Shown piece by piece: positions 2,050 through 8,513 of a DNA stretch of 64,000 bases. Source of the stretch: Achromobacter pulmonis (GTDB taxonomy: Bacteria; Pseudomonadota; Gammaproteobacteria; Burkholderiales; Burkholderiaceae_B). Position 1 is the stretch's first letter, and every line of letters begins with the position of its first letter. The stretch covers positions 1-64,000 of the forward strand of contig NZ_CADIJV010000014.1 in the NCBI RefSeq assembly GCF_902859765.1, read 5' to 3'. The notes under the pieces are model-generated. The model was not told where the DNA came from. It searched no databases and saw only the letters and a list, made by a program, of their open reading frames with translations. A program made the translations under genes and the position numbers.

Positions 2050-2409
2050 TCAGTTGGCGCTGAGATACACGCCGGCGAATGGCGTGTCGTCGGGTTCGAC
2101 ACCCGAGACTTGGCCGGCGGCCTTGGCGGCGGCCAGGTCGGCCCGCACTTGGGTGCGCGTCAGGCCGGATTGGGGGGCGCCATAAACGCCCTGGAAGGGC
2201 ATGTCGTTGGGCTCGACGTTCGAGACCTGGCCGGCGATCTTGGCGGTGGCCAGGTCGGCCTGCACCTGGGCGCGGGTCGGGCCTTCATAGGGGGTGCCGT
2301 AGACGCCCTGGAAGGGCATGTCGTTCGGTTCGACGTCCTGCCCGGCGTAGGCGCCGGCGCTCAAGGCGGCCAGGGACATCAACAGGGCAGAGGCAAGGGT
2401 CTTTTTCAT
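2050..2409 (-). CDS. Exported DUF4148-like protein made of tandem 39-residue repeats
   Basis: This is a 119-residue protein with a clear signal peptide (MKKTLASALLMSLAALSAGAYA). The mature part is nearly all repeat. The segment VEPNDMPFQGVYG appears at residues 26 and 65 and a diverged copy (VEPDDTPFAGVY) at 104, so the period is 39 residues (117 bp). Between copies sits TRAQVQADLATAKIAGQVS, which matches the DUF4148 helix common in Burkholderiales periplasmic proteins. The function of DUF4148 is not known. A good terminator follows, and a 16-bp palindrome lies about 130 bases upstream, so it is likely a monocistronic regulated gene. Confidence 0.85.
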   Translation of the reverse strand: MKKTLASALLMSLAALSAGAYAGQDVEPNDMPFQGVYGTPYEGPTRAQVQADLATAKIAGQVSNVEPNDMPFQGVYGAPQSGLTRTQVRADLAAAKAAGQVSGVEPDDTPFAGVYLSAN

Positions 2410-3093: not shown

Positions 3094-5247
3094 TTGACGC
3101 GGGAGCGATACTGGCGCGGCGCCCTGGCCCGCCCCTTTCTGCATGGCCTGCTGGGCATGGCGCCGGCGGTGACGGCGTTGGCGCAATCCGCGGCGCCGCA
3201 GGCGCTGGCGCCGGTGGTGGTGAGCGGTACCCGTATCGGCGTGCCGCTGCTCGAGACGCCGGCCTCGGTCGATATCGTCGACGGCGCGGGAATGCGCCGT
3301 GGCCAGCCGGGGATCAACTTGTCCGAAGGCCTGGCCGGCGTCCCCGGCTTGCAAATCCAGAACCGCCAGAACTACGCGCAGGACCTGCAGATATCCAGCC
3401 GGGGATTCGGCGCGCGCTCCACCTTCGGCGTGCGCGGGGTGCGGCTATACGTGGACGGCATCCCGGCGACCATGCCCGACGGGCAGGGCCAGACTTCGAA
3501 CATCGACATCGGCTCGCTCGATCGGGTGGAGGTGCTGCGCGGGCCGTTCTCGGCGCTGTACGGCAATTCCTCGGGCGGCGTGATCCTGGCTTATACCGAA
3601 GACGGCGCCGTGCCCTCGGCAATCGGCGCCTCGGCCTGGGCTGGCAGCGGCCACACCTGGCGCTATGGCGCCAAGGCTTCCGGCACGTCCGGCGACATGG
3701 ACTACGTGCTGGACCTGTCGCGCATGACCACCGACGGCTACCGCGACCACAGCGCCGCGCGCAAGAACCTGGGCAACGCCAAGCTGGGCGTGCAACTGGA
3801 CGATGCCAGCCGGCTGACGATCGTGGCCAACCGCGTGGACCTGAGAGCCCAGGACCCGCTCGGCCTGACCTACGCACAGTTCCAGGACGCGCCGCGCAGC
3901 GCCGGCCTGGCGGCGCAGTACGACACCCGCAAGACCGTGCGCCAGACCCAGGGGGGGCTGGTCTACGAGCGCCACATCGACGGCGCCAACACGCTGCGCC
4001 TGATGGTCTACTACGGCCAGCGTGACACCACGCAGTTCCAGGCCATCCCACCCGCGGCGCAGGCGGCCCCGACCCAGTCGGGCGGCGTCATCGACCTGCG
4101 CCGGCGCTATGGCGGCGCGGACCTGCGCTGGACCGCGGAACTGGGGCCGGCGGACCGGCCCTTGATCCTGGTCGGCGGCTTTGCCTACGACACGCTGCGC
4201 GAGAACCGCAAGGGCTACCAGAATTACACGGACGACGGCGCCACCCGCCAGCTCGGCGTGCAAGGGACGCTGCGGCGCGACGAGACCAATACGGTCTCCA
4301 ACGCCGATCCCTACCTGCAGGCCTCGTGGCGCGTGGCGCCGCGCTGGACACTGGACGCGGGCCTGCGCTACAGCACGGTCGCGTTCCGTTCGCGCGATCA
4401 TTACATCGTGCCTGGCAACGGCGATGACAGCGGCGACGCCCGCTACCGTCGCGCCCTGCCGGTGGCCGCGCTACGTTACCAGCCCGACACGCGCACCAGC
4501 CTGTATGTGTCTTATGGCCGCGGTTTCGAAACCCCCACGTTCAACGAGCTGTCGTACCGGCCGGGCGGACAGCCCGGCCTGAACTTCGGCCTGGCGCCCG
4601 CGCTCAGCGACAACGCCGAGGCGGGCCTGAAGACGGACCTGGCGGGCGGGCAACTGAGCGCCGCCGTGTTCCGGGTGTCGACGCGCGACGAGATCGTGGC
4701 GGCCGGCAGCACGGGCGGGCGCGCCACGTTCCGCAACGCCGGGCGCACCCGGCGCGATGGCGTGGAGCTGGGCTGGTCGGCCGGTTTCGCCAGGCACGGG
4801 CGAGCGCAACTGGCGTATACCTGGCTGGATGCGCGCTACCGCGATGAGGGCGGCGGCGCGATCCGCGCCGGCAGCCGTATCCCGGGCATCGCGCGCCAGT
4901 CGGCCTACGCCGCGCTGGCCTGGGCCCCGCCGCAAGGGTGGCAGGCCGGCATCGAGGCTCGCTATCTCGGCCGTCTGTACGCCAACGATGCCAACGACGC
5001 CGCCGCGCCTGCCTATGTGGTGGCGGCGCTGTCGGCCGGCTATGTGAAGCGCCTGGGCAACTGGGAGGTGAATGCCTATGCCCGCGTCGACAATCTGTTC
5101 GACCGGCGTTACGCCGGTTCGGTCATTGTCAACGAGAGCAATGGCCGCTATTACGAACCGGCCCCGGGGCGTGGCCTGGGTGGGGGGGCTGGGGGTGACC
5201 TACCGGTACTGAGCCGGACGTCCGGGCCCATTCAGCGTTCGCGCTGA
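3094..5247 (+). CDS. pqqU: TonB-dependent receptor, PqqU/YncD type, with C-terminal frameshift in a G7 tract
   Basis: This is an outer-membrane TonB receptor very close to E. coli YncD (PqqU, the pyrroloquinoline quinone receptor). Shared stretches include GVPGLQIQNRQNYAQDLQ, YVDGIPATMPDGQGQTSNID, VEVLRGPFSALYGN, YGRGFETPTFNELSYR and SVIVNESNGRYYEP. I chose TTG at 3094 because it gives a basic start and signal peptide ending AVTALAQ; no in-frame ATG does so. The 0 frame ends in ..GGAGGDLPVLSRTSGPIQRSR and lacks the terminal aromatic residue that OMP assembly needs. Removing one G from the G7 run at 5182-5188 restores LGVTYRY and a stop at 5212, giving about 705 residues, close to YncD. The gene is therefore frameshifted or phase-variable. 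The PQQ role is inferred from the E. coli homologue. Confidence 0.85.
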   Translation: MTRERYWRGALARPFLHGLLGMAPAVTALAQSAAPQALAPVVVSGTRIGVPLLETPASVDIVDGAGMRRGQPGINLSEGLAGVPGLQIQNRQNYAQDLQISSRGFGARSTFGVRGVRLYVDGIPATMPDGQGQTSNIDIGSLDRVEVLRGPFSALYGNSSGGVILAYTEDGAVPSAIGASAWAGSGHTWRYGAKASGTSGDMDYVLDLSRMTTDGYRDHSAARKNLGNAKLGVQLDDASRLTIVANRVDLRAQDPLGLTYAQFQDAPRSAGLAAQYDTRKTVRQTQGGLVYERHIDGANTLRLMVYYGQRDTTQFQAIPPAAQAAPTQSGGVIDLRRRYGGADLRWTAELGPADRPLILVGGFAYDTLRENRKGYQNYTDDGATRQLGVQGTLRRDETNTVSNADPYLQASWRVAPRWTLDAGLRYSTVAFRSRDHYIVPGNGDDSGDARYRRALPVAALRYQPDTRTSLYVSYGRGFETPTFNELSYRPGGQPGLNFGLAPALSDNAEAGLKTDLAGGQLSAAVFRVSTRDEIVAAGSTGGRATFRNAGRTRRDGVELGWSAGFARHGRAQLAYTWLDARYRDEGGGAIRAGSRIPGIARQSAYAALAWAPPQGWQAGIEARYLGRLYANDANDAAAPAYVVAALSAGYVKRLGNWEVNAYARVDNLFDRRYAGSVIVNESNGRYYEPAPGRGLGGGAGGDLPVLSRTSGPIQRSR

Positions 5248-5834
5248 TCCCCATAGCAGAAGGCGTGGTCCTCGCAGGCGCCGCAACCCGGCGCGGCCTG
5301 CGGCGGCAGGCCGGCATGCTCGAAAGCGGAATACGCCAGGAATTGCTTCCAGCGCAGGTTGCGGCTGTTGCGCGCCACCAGGCCGGGGTAGTGGCGGGTC
5401 AGCAGCGCGGTGACGTCCTCGCGCCCGCTCAGGCCGAGGTCGCGCCACAGGTGGTCCGGCCGCAGGCAGGCGTGCGCCAGCACGCTGGTGACCCAGGCGG
5501 TCGTCATGGCCTGGCCGCTGCAGGCGTCGAGCAGCACGCGCAGCCGCCGCGTGAAATCCGGTTGCGGGCTGGCCAGGCCGCGCGCGGCGTAGGCCGGCAG
5601 TTGCGCCCGCAGGCCGGCGCCGGCCGGCGCGCCAGGGAACAGGTTGGCCAGCACCTCGACCAGCTCGGCGGGAGACAGGCCGGTGCGGGCCAGATCGCGG
5701 TGCGCCAGGCTCTTGCCGATCACCGTGGCGAAAAAGCGGGCGTCGGGATGGTCGGGCGCGGCCTGCTCCAGCAGGCTATCGGTCAGGGCATCGATGTCCC
5801 GGGCGAGCGGGGCGGCGGTCAGGACGGCATCCAT
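5232..5834 (-). CDS. NifQ-like molybdenum-trafficking protein
   Basis: This is a 200-residue protein of the NifQ family. Typical segments are LSPAELVEVLANLFPGA, HACLRPDHLWRDLGL, LLTRHYPGLVARNSRNLRWK and a C-terminal cysteine cluster. NifQ carries C-x4-C-x2-C-x5-C, which holds a Mo-Fe-S cluster used to supply Mo for FeMo-cofactor. Here the motif reads QAAPGCGACEDHAFC, so the last three cysteines are kept and the first is Gln. No nif genes are in the window. I start at MDAVLTAA because the longer frame would run through a ModE-type operator 33 bp upstream. Its 3' end overlaps the 0-frame tail of the pqqU reading frame by 16 bp; that overlap disappears if the pqqU frameshift is corrected. A role in molybdenum handling is inferred. 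Confidence 0.82.
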   Translation of the reverse strand: MDAVLTAAPLARDIDALTDSLLEQAAPDHPDARFFATVIGKSLAHRDLARTGLSPAELVEVLANLFPGAPAGAGLRAQLPAYAARGLASPQPDFTRRLRVLLDACSGQAMTTAWVTSVLAHACLRPDHLWRDLGLSGREDVTALLTRHYPGLVARNSRNLRWKQFLAYSAFEHAGLPPQAAPGCGACEDHAFCYGDQRER

Positions 5835-5866
5835 GGCGGTTCGCGGCAAGCAAGGTTCTAAGGAAT

Positions 5867-5890
5867 CGTTATATGCCGCAATATATAACG
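5867..5890. promoter_or_regulatory. ModE-type molybdate operator
   Basis: CGTTATAT-N8-ATATAACG is a perfect 8-bp inverted repeat with an 8-bp spacer. It has the same half-sites and spacing as the E. coli modA operator bound by ModE-molybdate. It lies 33 bp upstream of the nifQ-like start and 107 bp upstream of the divergent ankyrin gene, so it most likely controls the nifQ-like gene in response to molybdate. That ModE is the binder is inferred from the match. Confidence 0.8.
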
Positions 5891-5996: not shown

Positions 5997-8513
5997 ATGC
6001 CCCGTCTTGCCCCTCTTGCGGTTCCCCGCCATCTCGGCGCCGTTGCGCTGGCGCTGGCCGGCCTGTTCGCCCTGTCCGCGCCGCCGCCCGCGGCGGCGCA
6101 CGACATCGGCGCCTTCATCGAGGCCACGCGGCTGGGCCGCTACCCGTTGCGCGAGCCGGAGCGCCGCGTCTGGGGCACCGAAAATGTCAGGGATGCCGTG
6201 CTGGTGGGGCAGGTGGAGAACCGGCTGTACCTGTACCACTACCTGCGCCAGGGTGGCGCTGGCACGCCGTCCGAACTGGCATTCCGTTCGCGGCCACTGG
6301 TGATCGATCCGGCCGCCTGGAACCCGGCGCGCGAGGAGGATGTCAGCGTGTCGGCGCCGCGCGACGGGCTGGGGTTCTATTGGGTGACCTACACCTATCC
6401 CGATGCCGATGGCCGGCAGGCCCACGGCTTCCTGGTGGACGAGAGTGGCGCCGTGGTGACGGTGCGCGCCGATGCCACCCGGGTGGTGGCGACGGCCGAG
6501 CAGCCTTGGGACGAGGCGCGCCGCGCCCGGGCGCTGGCCACGCTCAAACCGGCGCTGGCGGGGTTTCCCTGGCGCCTGCCGGCTTTTCCCGCCGATGTGC
6601 GTTTCGAGACGCGGCCGCCGGTCGAGACGACCGCGGCCTTCCGCAAGCTGCATCAGGCGGTGCGCGCCATCCCGCGCGCCCGGGCGGCCGACTTCAACCG
6701 GGCCTTCGCCGCGCTGCGCCGCTTCGTGCTGGAGCACGACTACCGCGAGATCGATCCGCAGAACAAGGACGCCGAGATGCTGACGGCCCTGAACGACTAT
6801 GGCTTCTGGCTGGCCGAGGCGGGCGAGGCGGTCGAGGCCGAGCGGGTGCTGGACGAGGTGCTGCGCCGCGATCCGGCACGCACGCCGGCCTACTTGAACC
6901 GCGCCGACGCGCGCATCAAACTGCGCGACCGCCAGCGCGAGCAGCGCGATGTGCACGCAACGCGGGCCCAGGAAGACTATCGCCGATATTGCTCGCGCAG
7001 GCTGGCGGCCGGCGAGGCGATCCCGGCGAACGTGGCCGCGCGCATCGGCGCGGCGTTGGGCGTCAAGGCGCTCGATGCGGCGGCGTGCCGGCCGCGGTTG
7101 GTGATTTTCGAGGCGATCCGCGCTGGCGACCTGAACGCCGTGCGCGCCGAACTGGCGCAGGGCCAGGACCCGAATGGCGTCAACGAGTACGGCGTGTCGG
7201 CATTGAGCATTGCCACCCACAACCGGCAACTCGAGATGGTGCGGGCGCTGCTGGCCGCCGGCGCCAAGGTCGATGGCCCCAATCGCGGCGCGCCGCTGCT
7301 GGCCTCGGCGCTGCCGCAGGCGCGCGACACCCGTCCGGCCGCCGAGCGCTATGCGCTGGCCGACACGCTGATCGCCGCGGGCGCCTCGCTGGAGGCGCTC
7401 GACGCCAATGGCACGCCGCTGCTGCTGCGGCGTGTCTCGTACTACGCCGAGGATAGGGACACGCTCGACTACCTGCTGGCCAAGGGCGCCGATCCGAATG
7501 GCCGCGAGAAGAATGGCCGCTCGGTGCTGCACGCGGCCATGAGCAGTCCGTCGAAATTCTGGTTCGCGGAAAAACTGCTGGCCAAGGGCGCGGACATCAA
7601 TGCCGCCTATATCCGCATGTACTACGGCCGCCAGGCCATGTGGGAAACACCGCTGCTGGAAGCGCTGCGTGAATCGCCCGGCGGCGAGCCCAAGCCGCAG
7701 GTGTTTGAGCGCGTGGCGTTCGCGCTGGCCAGGGGCGCCGATCCGGCCGTGGGCGGCTATGGGCCGAAGGCGGGGCAGCAGCGCGCCGGGCTGGACGAAG
7801 CCTTGAGCCTGGCGGCGCGGCAGATGTCGCCGGAACTGGTGGACCGGTTGGCGCAGGCCGCCGCCGGCAAGCCGCGCGCGCCGTTGACGACGGCGGCACT
7901 GTCGAGCCTGCTGCGGCAATGGAACGAGGTCGAGAACCGCGCCGATGCGCAGGCCAAGGGGGCGCAGTGGGACGATCTGCGGGCGCGCCTGCGCGCCACC
8001 GCCGAGCGCCTGCTGGCGGCGGGCGTGCCGCTGGCGTATTCCGGCAACGCCACCGGCGAATCAACTGACCAGATCGCGCCGCTGTCGCTGCCCTGGTTGC
8101 CCGACGATCTTTACCAGGCGTGGCTGCTGGCGGGCGCGAACCCGTCGGATCGCAGCGATCGCGGCACGCGGCTGCGTGGCGTGGTGGATGCCGATGCCCT
8201 GCCGCTGGTCATCATGCTGCGGCTGGGCAACGACGCCAAGGCGCGCATGCTGTTGGCGCACGACGGCGGCCTGTATGCCACGCCCGCGCGCTGCGGCATG
8301 GCGGTGGCGGACATGCTGGCCTGGTGCCTGAGCGACAACGGCCCGCTCGGGCCGTCCGCCGCGCGCGCTTTGCAGCAGGTGCTGGATGGCGCGGCCAAGG
8401 CGCCGGCCTGCGACCTGGCGCAGGGGGCGCGGGTGAAGCCGTTCGTCGGGGTCAGCGCGCGCGACCTGGCGCAGCGCGCCGGCGTGACGCTGGCGGTGAA
8501 GGCGCCGGGCTGA
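5997..8513 (+). CDS. Large exported ankyrin-repeat protein
   Basis: This is an 838-residue protein. I start at MPRLAPLAVPRH because it opens a signal peptide (hydrophobic core AVALALAGLFALS, likely cut after PAAA-H). The N-terminal third is of unknown fold. A short TPR-like segment (ALNDYGFWLAEAGEAVEAERVLDEVLRRDP..AYLNRADAR) lies around residues 265-310. From about residue 365, ankyrin units begin: IFEAIRAGDLNAVRAELAQGQDPNGV, ALSIATHNRQLEMVRALLAAGA and LDYLLAKGADPNGREKNGRSVLHAA. Ankyrin arrays mediate protein binding, so a periplasmic scaffold or immunity-like role is possible but not shown. Its divergent neighbour is the nifQ-like gene. Confidence 0.8.
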   Translation: MPRLAPLAVPRHLGAVALALAGLFALSAPPPAAAHDIGAFIEATRLGRYPLREPERRVWGTENVRDAVLVGQVENRLYLYHYLRQGGAGTPSELAFRSRPLVIDPAAWNPAREEDVSVSAPRDGLGFYWVTYTYPDADGRQAHGFLVDESGAVVTVRADATRVVATAEQPWDEARRARALATLKPALAGFPWRLPAFPADVRFETRPPVETTAAFRKLHQAVRAIPRARAADFNRAFAALRRFVLEHDYREIDPQNKDAEMLTALNDYGFWLAEAGEAVEAERVLDEVLRRDPARTPAYLNRADARIKLRDRQREQRDVHATRAQEDYRRYCSRRLAAGEAIPANVAARIGAALGVKALDAAACRPRLVIFEAIRAGDLNAVRAELAQGQDPNGVNEYGVSALSIATHNRQLEMVRALLAAGAKVDGPNRGAPLLASALPQARDTRPAAERYALADTLIAAGASLEALDANGTPLLLRRVSYYAEDRDTLDYLLAKGADPNGREKNGRSVLHAAMSSPSKFWFAEKLLAKGADINAAYIRMYYGRQAMWETPLLEALRESPGGEPKPQVFERVAFALARGADPAVGGYGPKAGQQRAGLDEALSLAARQMSPELVDRLAQAAAGKPRAPLTTAALSSLLRQWNEVENRADAQAKGAQWDDLRARLRATAERLLAAGVPLAYSGNATGESTDQIAPLSLPWLPDDLYQAWLLAGANPSDRSDRGTRLRGVVDADALPLVIMLRLGNDAKARMLLAHDGGLYATPARCGMAVADMLAWCLSDNGPLGPSAARALQQVLDGAAKAPACDLAQGARVKPFVGVSARDLAQRAGVTLAVKAPG

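Follow-up and report, generated by a model that had tools for sequence, protein, structure and literature searches.

The subject of this report is a nifQ-family gene in a 64,000-nt stretch of the Achromobacter pulmonis genome (positions 1 to 64,000 of contig NZ_CADIJV010000014.1, assembly GCF_902859765.1), which is called "the window" below. The gene lies just downstream of a box that resembles an operator of the molybdate regulator ModE. Several lines of evidence suggest that its product belongs to a second branch of the NifQ family, distinct from the nitrogenase type, and that this branch sits in the molybdate regulon and would handle molybdenum for molybdenum-cofactor (Moco) enzymes. We give this reading a probability of about 70%, on comparisons of sequence and gene order. 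A preliminary description of this DNA had proposed a molybdate-regulated, molybdenum-handling protein outside nitrogen fixation, and the data favor that proposal: comparison of the boxes supports the regulation, and gene context and family membership point to the molybdenum handling.

The window gene, its box and their conservation in Achromobacter

The PF04891 profile matched the window protein at 112.7 bits (gathering cut-off 27, E 3.1e-32), which confirms the earlier assignment to the NifQ family, and a Pfam scan of the protein returned this family only. It is the single NifQ match across the source genome (5.67 Mb, 91 contigs), whose assignment to Achromobacter agrees with its closest named relatives (A. 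insuavis, 86% identity over the best segment). Just upstream of the gene, the box CGTTATATGCCGCAATATATAACG has zero mismatches to the inverted-repeat pattern CGTTATAT-N8-ATATAACG (Table 1) and ends 32 nt ahead of the nifQ ATG; its placement upstream of nifQ stands as first described, and the spacing of 33 bp given at that time is corrected here. It is the sole site in the window at up to 3 mismatches, and 100 dinucleotide shuffles yielded 0 matches. The modA operator of E. coli K-12 (NC_000913), CGTTATATTGTCGCCTACATAACG, is one base off the same pattern and lies 19 nt before modA. The two boxes are nearly identical, so the window box does copy the modA operator pattern, as had been claimed; unlike the E. 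coli modABC case, a box stands here before both modA and a NifQ-family gene. A sigma-70 promoter was sought near the box, and none satisfied the consensus rule.

The preliminary description had called for a search of the genome for modE, other ModE boxes and molybdoenzymes, and modE, a second box and candidate molybdoenzymes were found. ModE is encoded on contig C43 by a 264-aa open reading frame (ORF) that scored 101.6 bits against TIGR00637, above the cut-off. The modE gene adjoins modC on the opposite strand, and a second box, CGTTATATACCTCTATATATTTCG, with 2 mismatches, lies 33 nt before the likely modA ATG, about 2.7 kb from modE. PF00384 matched at seven places, one of which may be NuoG. 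A molybdopterin-domain ORF with a PF00384 match (G000:C12:17761-19413, minus strand) contains one in-frame TGA, which may encode selenocysteine, possibly in a formate dehydrogenase. With the strict pattern at 2 mismatches, the source genome gave two sites, those at nifQ and modA, versus 0 for a reversed control. The looser pattern at up to 3 mismatches gave 42 sites versus 32 in the reversed control, so the weak sites are mostly chance. A genome-wide regulon built from weak sites was set aside, since 3-mismatch sites are about as numerous as in controls and the control at 2 mismatches still returns 0-2 per genome. Site C9:136812 (1 mismatch to the loose pattern), beside a gene read as PadR-like, was also taken as chance.

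The association between nifQ and the box is conserved throughout the genus; the figures for nifQ presence, for box sites per genome and for the first nif survey described below are counts among the matches listed. NifQ is present in 40 of 43 congeneric genomes, and every one of the 40 carries a box upstream of nifQ with 0 (7 genomes), 1 (12), 2 (16), 3 (2) or 4 (3) mismatches; the reversed-pattern control in the same upstream stretches has 3 to 7. At up to 2 mismatches, two sites per genome were found in 25 of the 43, one in 10, three or four in 7 and none in 1. The genomes with two sites (to G039) have one at nifQ and another with a modA-type core, and the latter site lies 2.7-3.0 kb from modE in G001, G004, G023 and G031, where positions were compared. 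The genomes lacking nifQ (G023, G024 and G031) have one site each, of the modA type. ModE was detected in 42 of 43 genomes. Across 25 named Achromobacter loci, the mean identity of the box columns is 0.83, versus 0.49 and 0.56 in the 40-nt flanks. The shuffles, the genus-wide retention and this conservation as an island relative to its flanks led us to reject a chance origin of the box. Two Achromobacter genomes have a third ModE-type box, with 2 mismatches (L144:1501-1524 and L299:1989-2012), about 115 nt ahead of a short ORF read as NapE and followed by NapD (PF03927 in L144); we read these ORFs as a molybdenum nitrate reductase operon.

Cysteine motif, nif genes and phylogeny

As first described, the cluster motif of the window protein keeps Cys at three of four positions, with Gln at the first: the translation reads Q179-x4-C184-x2-C187-x5-C193, which departs from the nitrogenase-type motif C-x4-C-x2-C-x5-C. 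In an alignment of 81 rows (A3), 28 residues are invariant in all sequences, C184, C187, C193, H128 and N156 among them. The glutamine did not hold up as a conserved replacement. The first motif residue of the 40 genus proteins is Ala in 21, Ser in 14, Thr in 3 and Gln in 2, and that of 80 named relatives is Gly in 27, Ala in 16, Thr in 14, Ser in 10, Gln in 7, Val in 2, Arg in 2, Asp in 1 and Met in 1. The conserved feature is the lack of Cys, a residue that occupies this position in 0/40 and 0/80 proteins, respectively. A search of the Protein Data Bank by sequence found no NifQ relatives; there were three hits, the best at E 0.04 (designed bundle, heat shock protein).

The preliminary description had noted that no nif gene lies nearby and had raised the possibility of a nif cluster elsewhere. 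Neither PF00148 nor TIGR01282 has a match in the source genome (5.67 Mb, 100% complete), so the absence extends genome-wide, and the window NifQ is not found with nitrogenase and iron-molybdenum cofactor (FeMo-co) scaffold genes. TIGR01282 matched 0/38 further congeners and had no match in G040. We used a TIGR01282 match to assign nif status to NifQ-bearing genomes in two surveys, of 80 and 79 genomes; 53 in the first (51 above cut-off) and 40 in the second (37 above cut-off) had a match. A four-cysteine NifQ occurs in 93/93 nif-match genomes, and the 66 genomes without a match have a three-cysteine form in 59, a zero-cysteine form in 4 and a four-cysteine form in 3, with the qualifications that some nif-negative genomes are incomplete (e.g. 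G033, 57%; G027, 78%) and that genome counts are not independent events, the cysteine labels needing few changes on the tree. Two nif-match genomes, G811 (L284:7743-8316, minus strand) and G824 (L285:6752-7442, plus strand), contain a second NifQ paralogue without the cysteine motif, located in G811 about 1.5 kb from the four-cysteine copy; these paralogues are possibly degenerate or frame-shifted.

On a tree of 63 chosen rows, midpoint-rooted for drawing only, the non-nif relatives separate from nif NifQ as a branch of their own. The nif side holds 33 four-cysteine rows and the two motif-less paralogues from nif-match genomes. The other side holds 11 rows from Achromobacter and Bordetella, 7 of the Burkholderia/Pigmentiphaga type, 6 of the mod-operon type and 4 with no cysteines. 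Support for the split is 80/97, which is below the starred level, and the four no-cysteine rows are one group (100/95) inside the mod-operon type. His128 of the HLW core is retained in the cysteine-bearing rows of a second alignment (A2); it is Asp or Glu in the three no-cysteine rows of that alignment and Glu in the fourth no-cysteine protein (L078), as if His128 and the cluster cysteines were parts of one site. The existence of no-cysteine members suggests that the remainder of the protein has its own function.

Molybdate genes near nifQ in other lineages

The order modA-modB-modC-nifQ-modE, on one strand, was found in 9 of 11 order-level loci (L078-L080, L082-L086 and L133), which represent four genera (g117 four loci, g51 three, g69 one and g148 one). 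These gene orders were taken from a homology search, the gene caller being crude and leaving L082 to L085 partly unseen in its output. In each of the nine, a box with 1-3 mismatches lies close to the 5' end of the modA reading frame, and no-cysteine members occur within the mod operon in L078-L080. In L077, modE adjoins nifQ, and a perfect box precedes a separate modABC. In L081 (7922-9346, plus strand; genome G496), a no-cysteine NifQ domain is fused to ModD in one ORF (TIGR01334 239.8 bits, above cut-off), followed by a Mop-like ORF that matches the TOBE part of ModE; some 6 kb upstream of the fusion there are boxes with 2 and 3 mismatches, in a stretch where the reversed control reaches 3.

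Molybdate-related neighbors also occur in the 55 named loci from outside Achromobacter. The Achromobacter ModE matches an ORF, by its helix-turn-helix (HTH) or its TOBE part, in 42 of them; 26 loci have a homologue of the L206 PF00174 Moco-domain protein, 16 have one of the L212 Mop protein, and 11 have one of the L235 WtpA/ModA-like binding protein. In Caballeronia, 10/17 loci have a box, at 2-3 mismatches, ahead of the Moco-domain gene and nifQ. A scan of the 250-900 nt upstream of the DHLW codons found no box at nifQ in Bordetella genomosp. 5, Pigmentiphaga, Pollutimonas and most Burkholderia/Paraburkholderia loci, and the presence of a box at nifQ itself is therefore specific to certain lineages. 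The preliminary description had proposed to check its conservation in orthologues; the box is conserved in Achromobacter (40/40) but not in these other lineages. Judged by gene order, several other lineages link the gene to molybdate genes through a shared operon or neighborhood instead of a box. For the Pigmentiphaga and Pollutimonas genomes (groups g31 and g32), the frame with the best ModE match has only 140-183 aa, fewer than expected of a ModE that includes the molybdate-binding TOBE pair.

Elsewhere in the window, positions 2053-2409 (minus strand) encode a small DUF4148 protein with three copies of an EP(N/D)D..PF.GVY repeat.

Table 1. Features of the nifQ region, with positions in the window
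Feature	Position	Strand	Basis
ModE-type operator CGTTATAT-N8-ATATAACG	5867..5890	.	Pattern match; shuffles; conservation in genus; E. coli modA operator
nifQ-family gene, 200 aa, three-cysteine form	5232..5834	-	PF04891; ATG at 5834, stop at 5232-5234
Core motif D-HLWRDLGL-S, codons D127 to S136	5427..5456	-	H128 invariant in A3
Q-x4-C-x2-C-x5-C remnant of NifQ cluster motif, codons Q179 to C193	5256..5300	-	C184, C187, C193 invariant in A3

Proposed role and alternatives

Excerpts of PMC11605450 describe Azotobacter vinelandii NifQ as binding Fe-S and Mo and donating Mo to NifEN/NifH; the metal is held on a Mo-Fe3-S4 cluster formed from an Fe3-S4 precursor, and high molybdate rescues mutants. 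Excerpts of PMC6448029 also give NifQ a nitrogenase role. In the portions of PMC4101177 examined, NifQ is broadly distributed in Burkholderia species without other nif genes and is called likely molybdenum-processing; Table 3 of that paper marks NifQ in B. cenocepacia and B. multivorans and NifHDKENB as absent, and the same portions give no motif, operator or gene neighborhood for Burkholderia NifQ. The excerpted NifQ passages of PMC3464626, PMC8250432, PMC10434068 and PMC8042378 contain nothing on non-diazotrophs. NifQ without nif is thus already known, and the ModE link is apparently new, no report of a NifQ-ModE link in non-diazotrophs having appeared among the papers listed by searches of an open-access library.

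Like the NifQ of diazotrophs (A. vinelandii and Klebsiella), the window protein has the PF04891 domain, the HLW-DLGL and WKKF cores and the last three cluster cysteines. Unlike it, the window protein has its first Cys replaced, comes from a genome with no nifD/K/E/N-type gene and falls on a separate branch; its gene lies under a ModE-type box, and relatives in other lineages lie in a mod operon. ModD, Mop and other molybdate-operon accessory genes share the neighborhood of this branch, and one is joined to it in the NifQ-ModD fusion, but ModD and Mop have no Pfam family in common with the window protein.

The following mechanism would account for these observations. ModE would recognize the box upstream of nifQ, a step that the comparison of boxes supports. 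Molybdate-bound ModE would repress modA and nifQ alike, since each of the two predicted start codons has a box 32-33 nt ahead of it, and both genes would therefore rise when molybdate is scarce. The NifQ-like protein may take up molybdenum imported by ModABC on its core. In three-cysteine members, the metal would probably sit on an Fe-S cluster held by C184, C187 and C193 with His128 nearby; the three cysteines might serve three irons and leave the fourth corner to Mo. Mo would then be kept or buffered, or handed to molybdenum-cofactor synthesis; the biochemical step may be that of a carrier, a buffer or a sensor. A wider view is possible, though we hold it tentatively and consider it the less probable course: the whole NifQ family might be a general ModE-regulon Mo carrier from ModABC to Moco, in which the nitrogenase donor is one specialized branch and the cluster-free core represents an older or shared function.

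Several observations weigh against a role in the molybdate regulon as we have described it. Four-cysteine NifQ occurs without a nif match in G347 (a 3.4-kb contig), G582 (87% complete) and G655 (100% complete), the first two belonging to genera that have nif. The cluster cannot be the whole function because four relatives have no Cys. ModE can also activate genes, so the sign of its effect on nifQ is uncertain. In the 25 Achromobacter loci, no match to ModA, ModC, ModE or Mop was found near nifQ, and in G036, which carries the box, no ModE was found at E 1e-15 (53/84 candidates scored). The reversed control at 2 mismatches gives 0-2 sites per genus genome, and over whole mod-operon loci the best score of the reversed pattern is 3-4 mismatches, which makes the modA boxes of L078 and L082, each with 3 mismatches, weak when taken singly. 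Outside Achromobacter, 13/55 named loci have no ORF matching ModE, and both the box and mod-specific neighbors are lacking from the loci of Bordetella genomosp. 5, Pigmentiphaga and Pollutimonas.

The most credible alternative, which we nonetheless consider unlikely, is that the NifQ-like protein is a regulator or sensor that signals the Mo status to ModE or holds ModABC in check. The position of the gene between modC and modE in 9/11 loci would suit such a role, as would the ModE matches that many other Burkholderiaceae loci have directly after nifQ and the arrangement in L075, where the gene that follows nifQ is ModE-like but has the HTH part only (78.2 bits against TIGR00637, under the 98.5 cut-off); the forms without Cys could also work as sensors without a cluster. 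However, the Achromobacter nifQ lies away from the mod genes and is itself under a box, the Pfam scan of the window protein gave the NifQ family only, and the known NifQ activity, in the excerpts of PMC11605450, is Mo donation.

Loss of the first Cys, together with the invariance of C184, C187 and C193 in 81 sequences, might instead indicate an iron-sulfur redox or oxygen sensor that has lost Mo handling and remains in the Mo regulon by history. We regard this as improbable: links to ModD, Mop, modABC and the Moco-domain protein recur in separate lineages, and members with no Cys remain in the mod operon (L078-L080).

The absence of nifD/K/E/N-type genes from the source genome and the missing first cluster Cys could also mark a functionless relic of a lost nif cluster, but retention of nifQ in 40/43 genus genomes, 28 residues invariant across 81 sequences, a branch separate from nif NifQ (split 80/97) and an island-like conserved box make this very improbable. 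It is equally hard to credit that the box serves solely the divergent gene for a large ankyrin-repeat protein (5997-8513, plus strand, between nifQ and cyoD): the box does occupy the gap that separates the two genes, 106 nt upstream of the likely ankyrin ATG, but only 14 of the 25 named Achromobacter loci have the ankyrin gene and 11 lack it, whereas all 25 retain the box at the nifQ end with 0-4 mismatches, and its conservation where the ankyrin gene is missing indicates that the operator belongs to nifQ.

The implication of a molybdenum-handling NifQ branch is broader than this one gene. An annotation of "nifQ" alone is no sign of nitrogen fixation. To our knowledge, no dedicated carrier explains the route of molybdate from ModABC to the Moco-building enzymes in most bacteria, and a NifQ branch that shares an operon with modABC and modE where the genome has no nif matches is a direct candidate for such a carrier. 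Its natural three- and zero-cysteine variants would provide a means to dissect how NifQ holds Mo.

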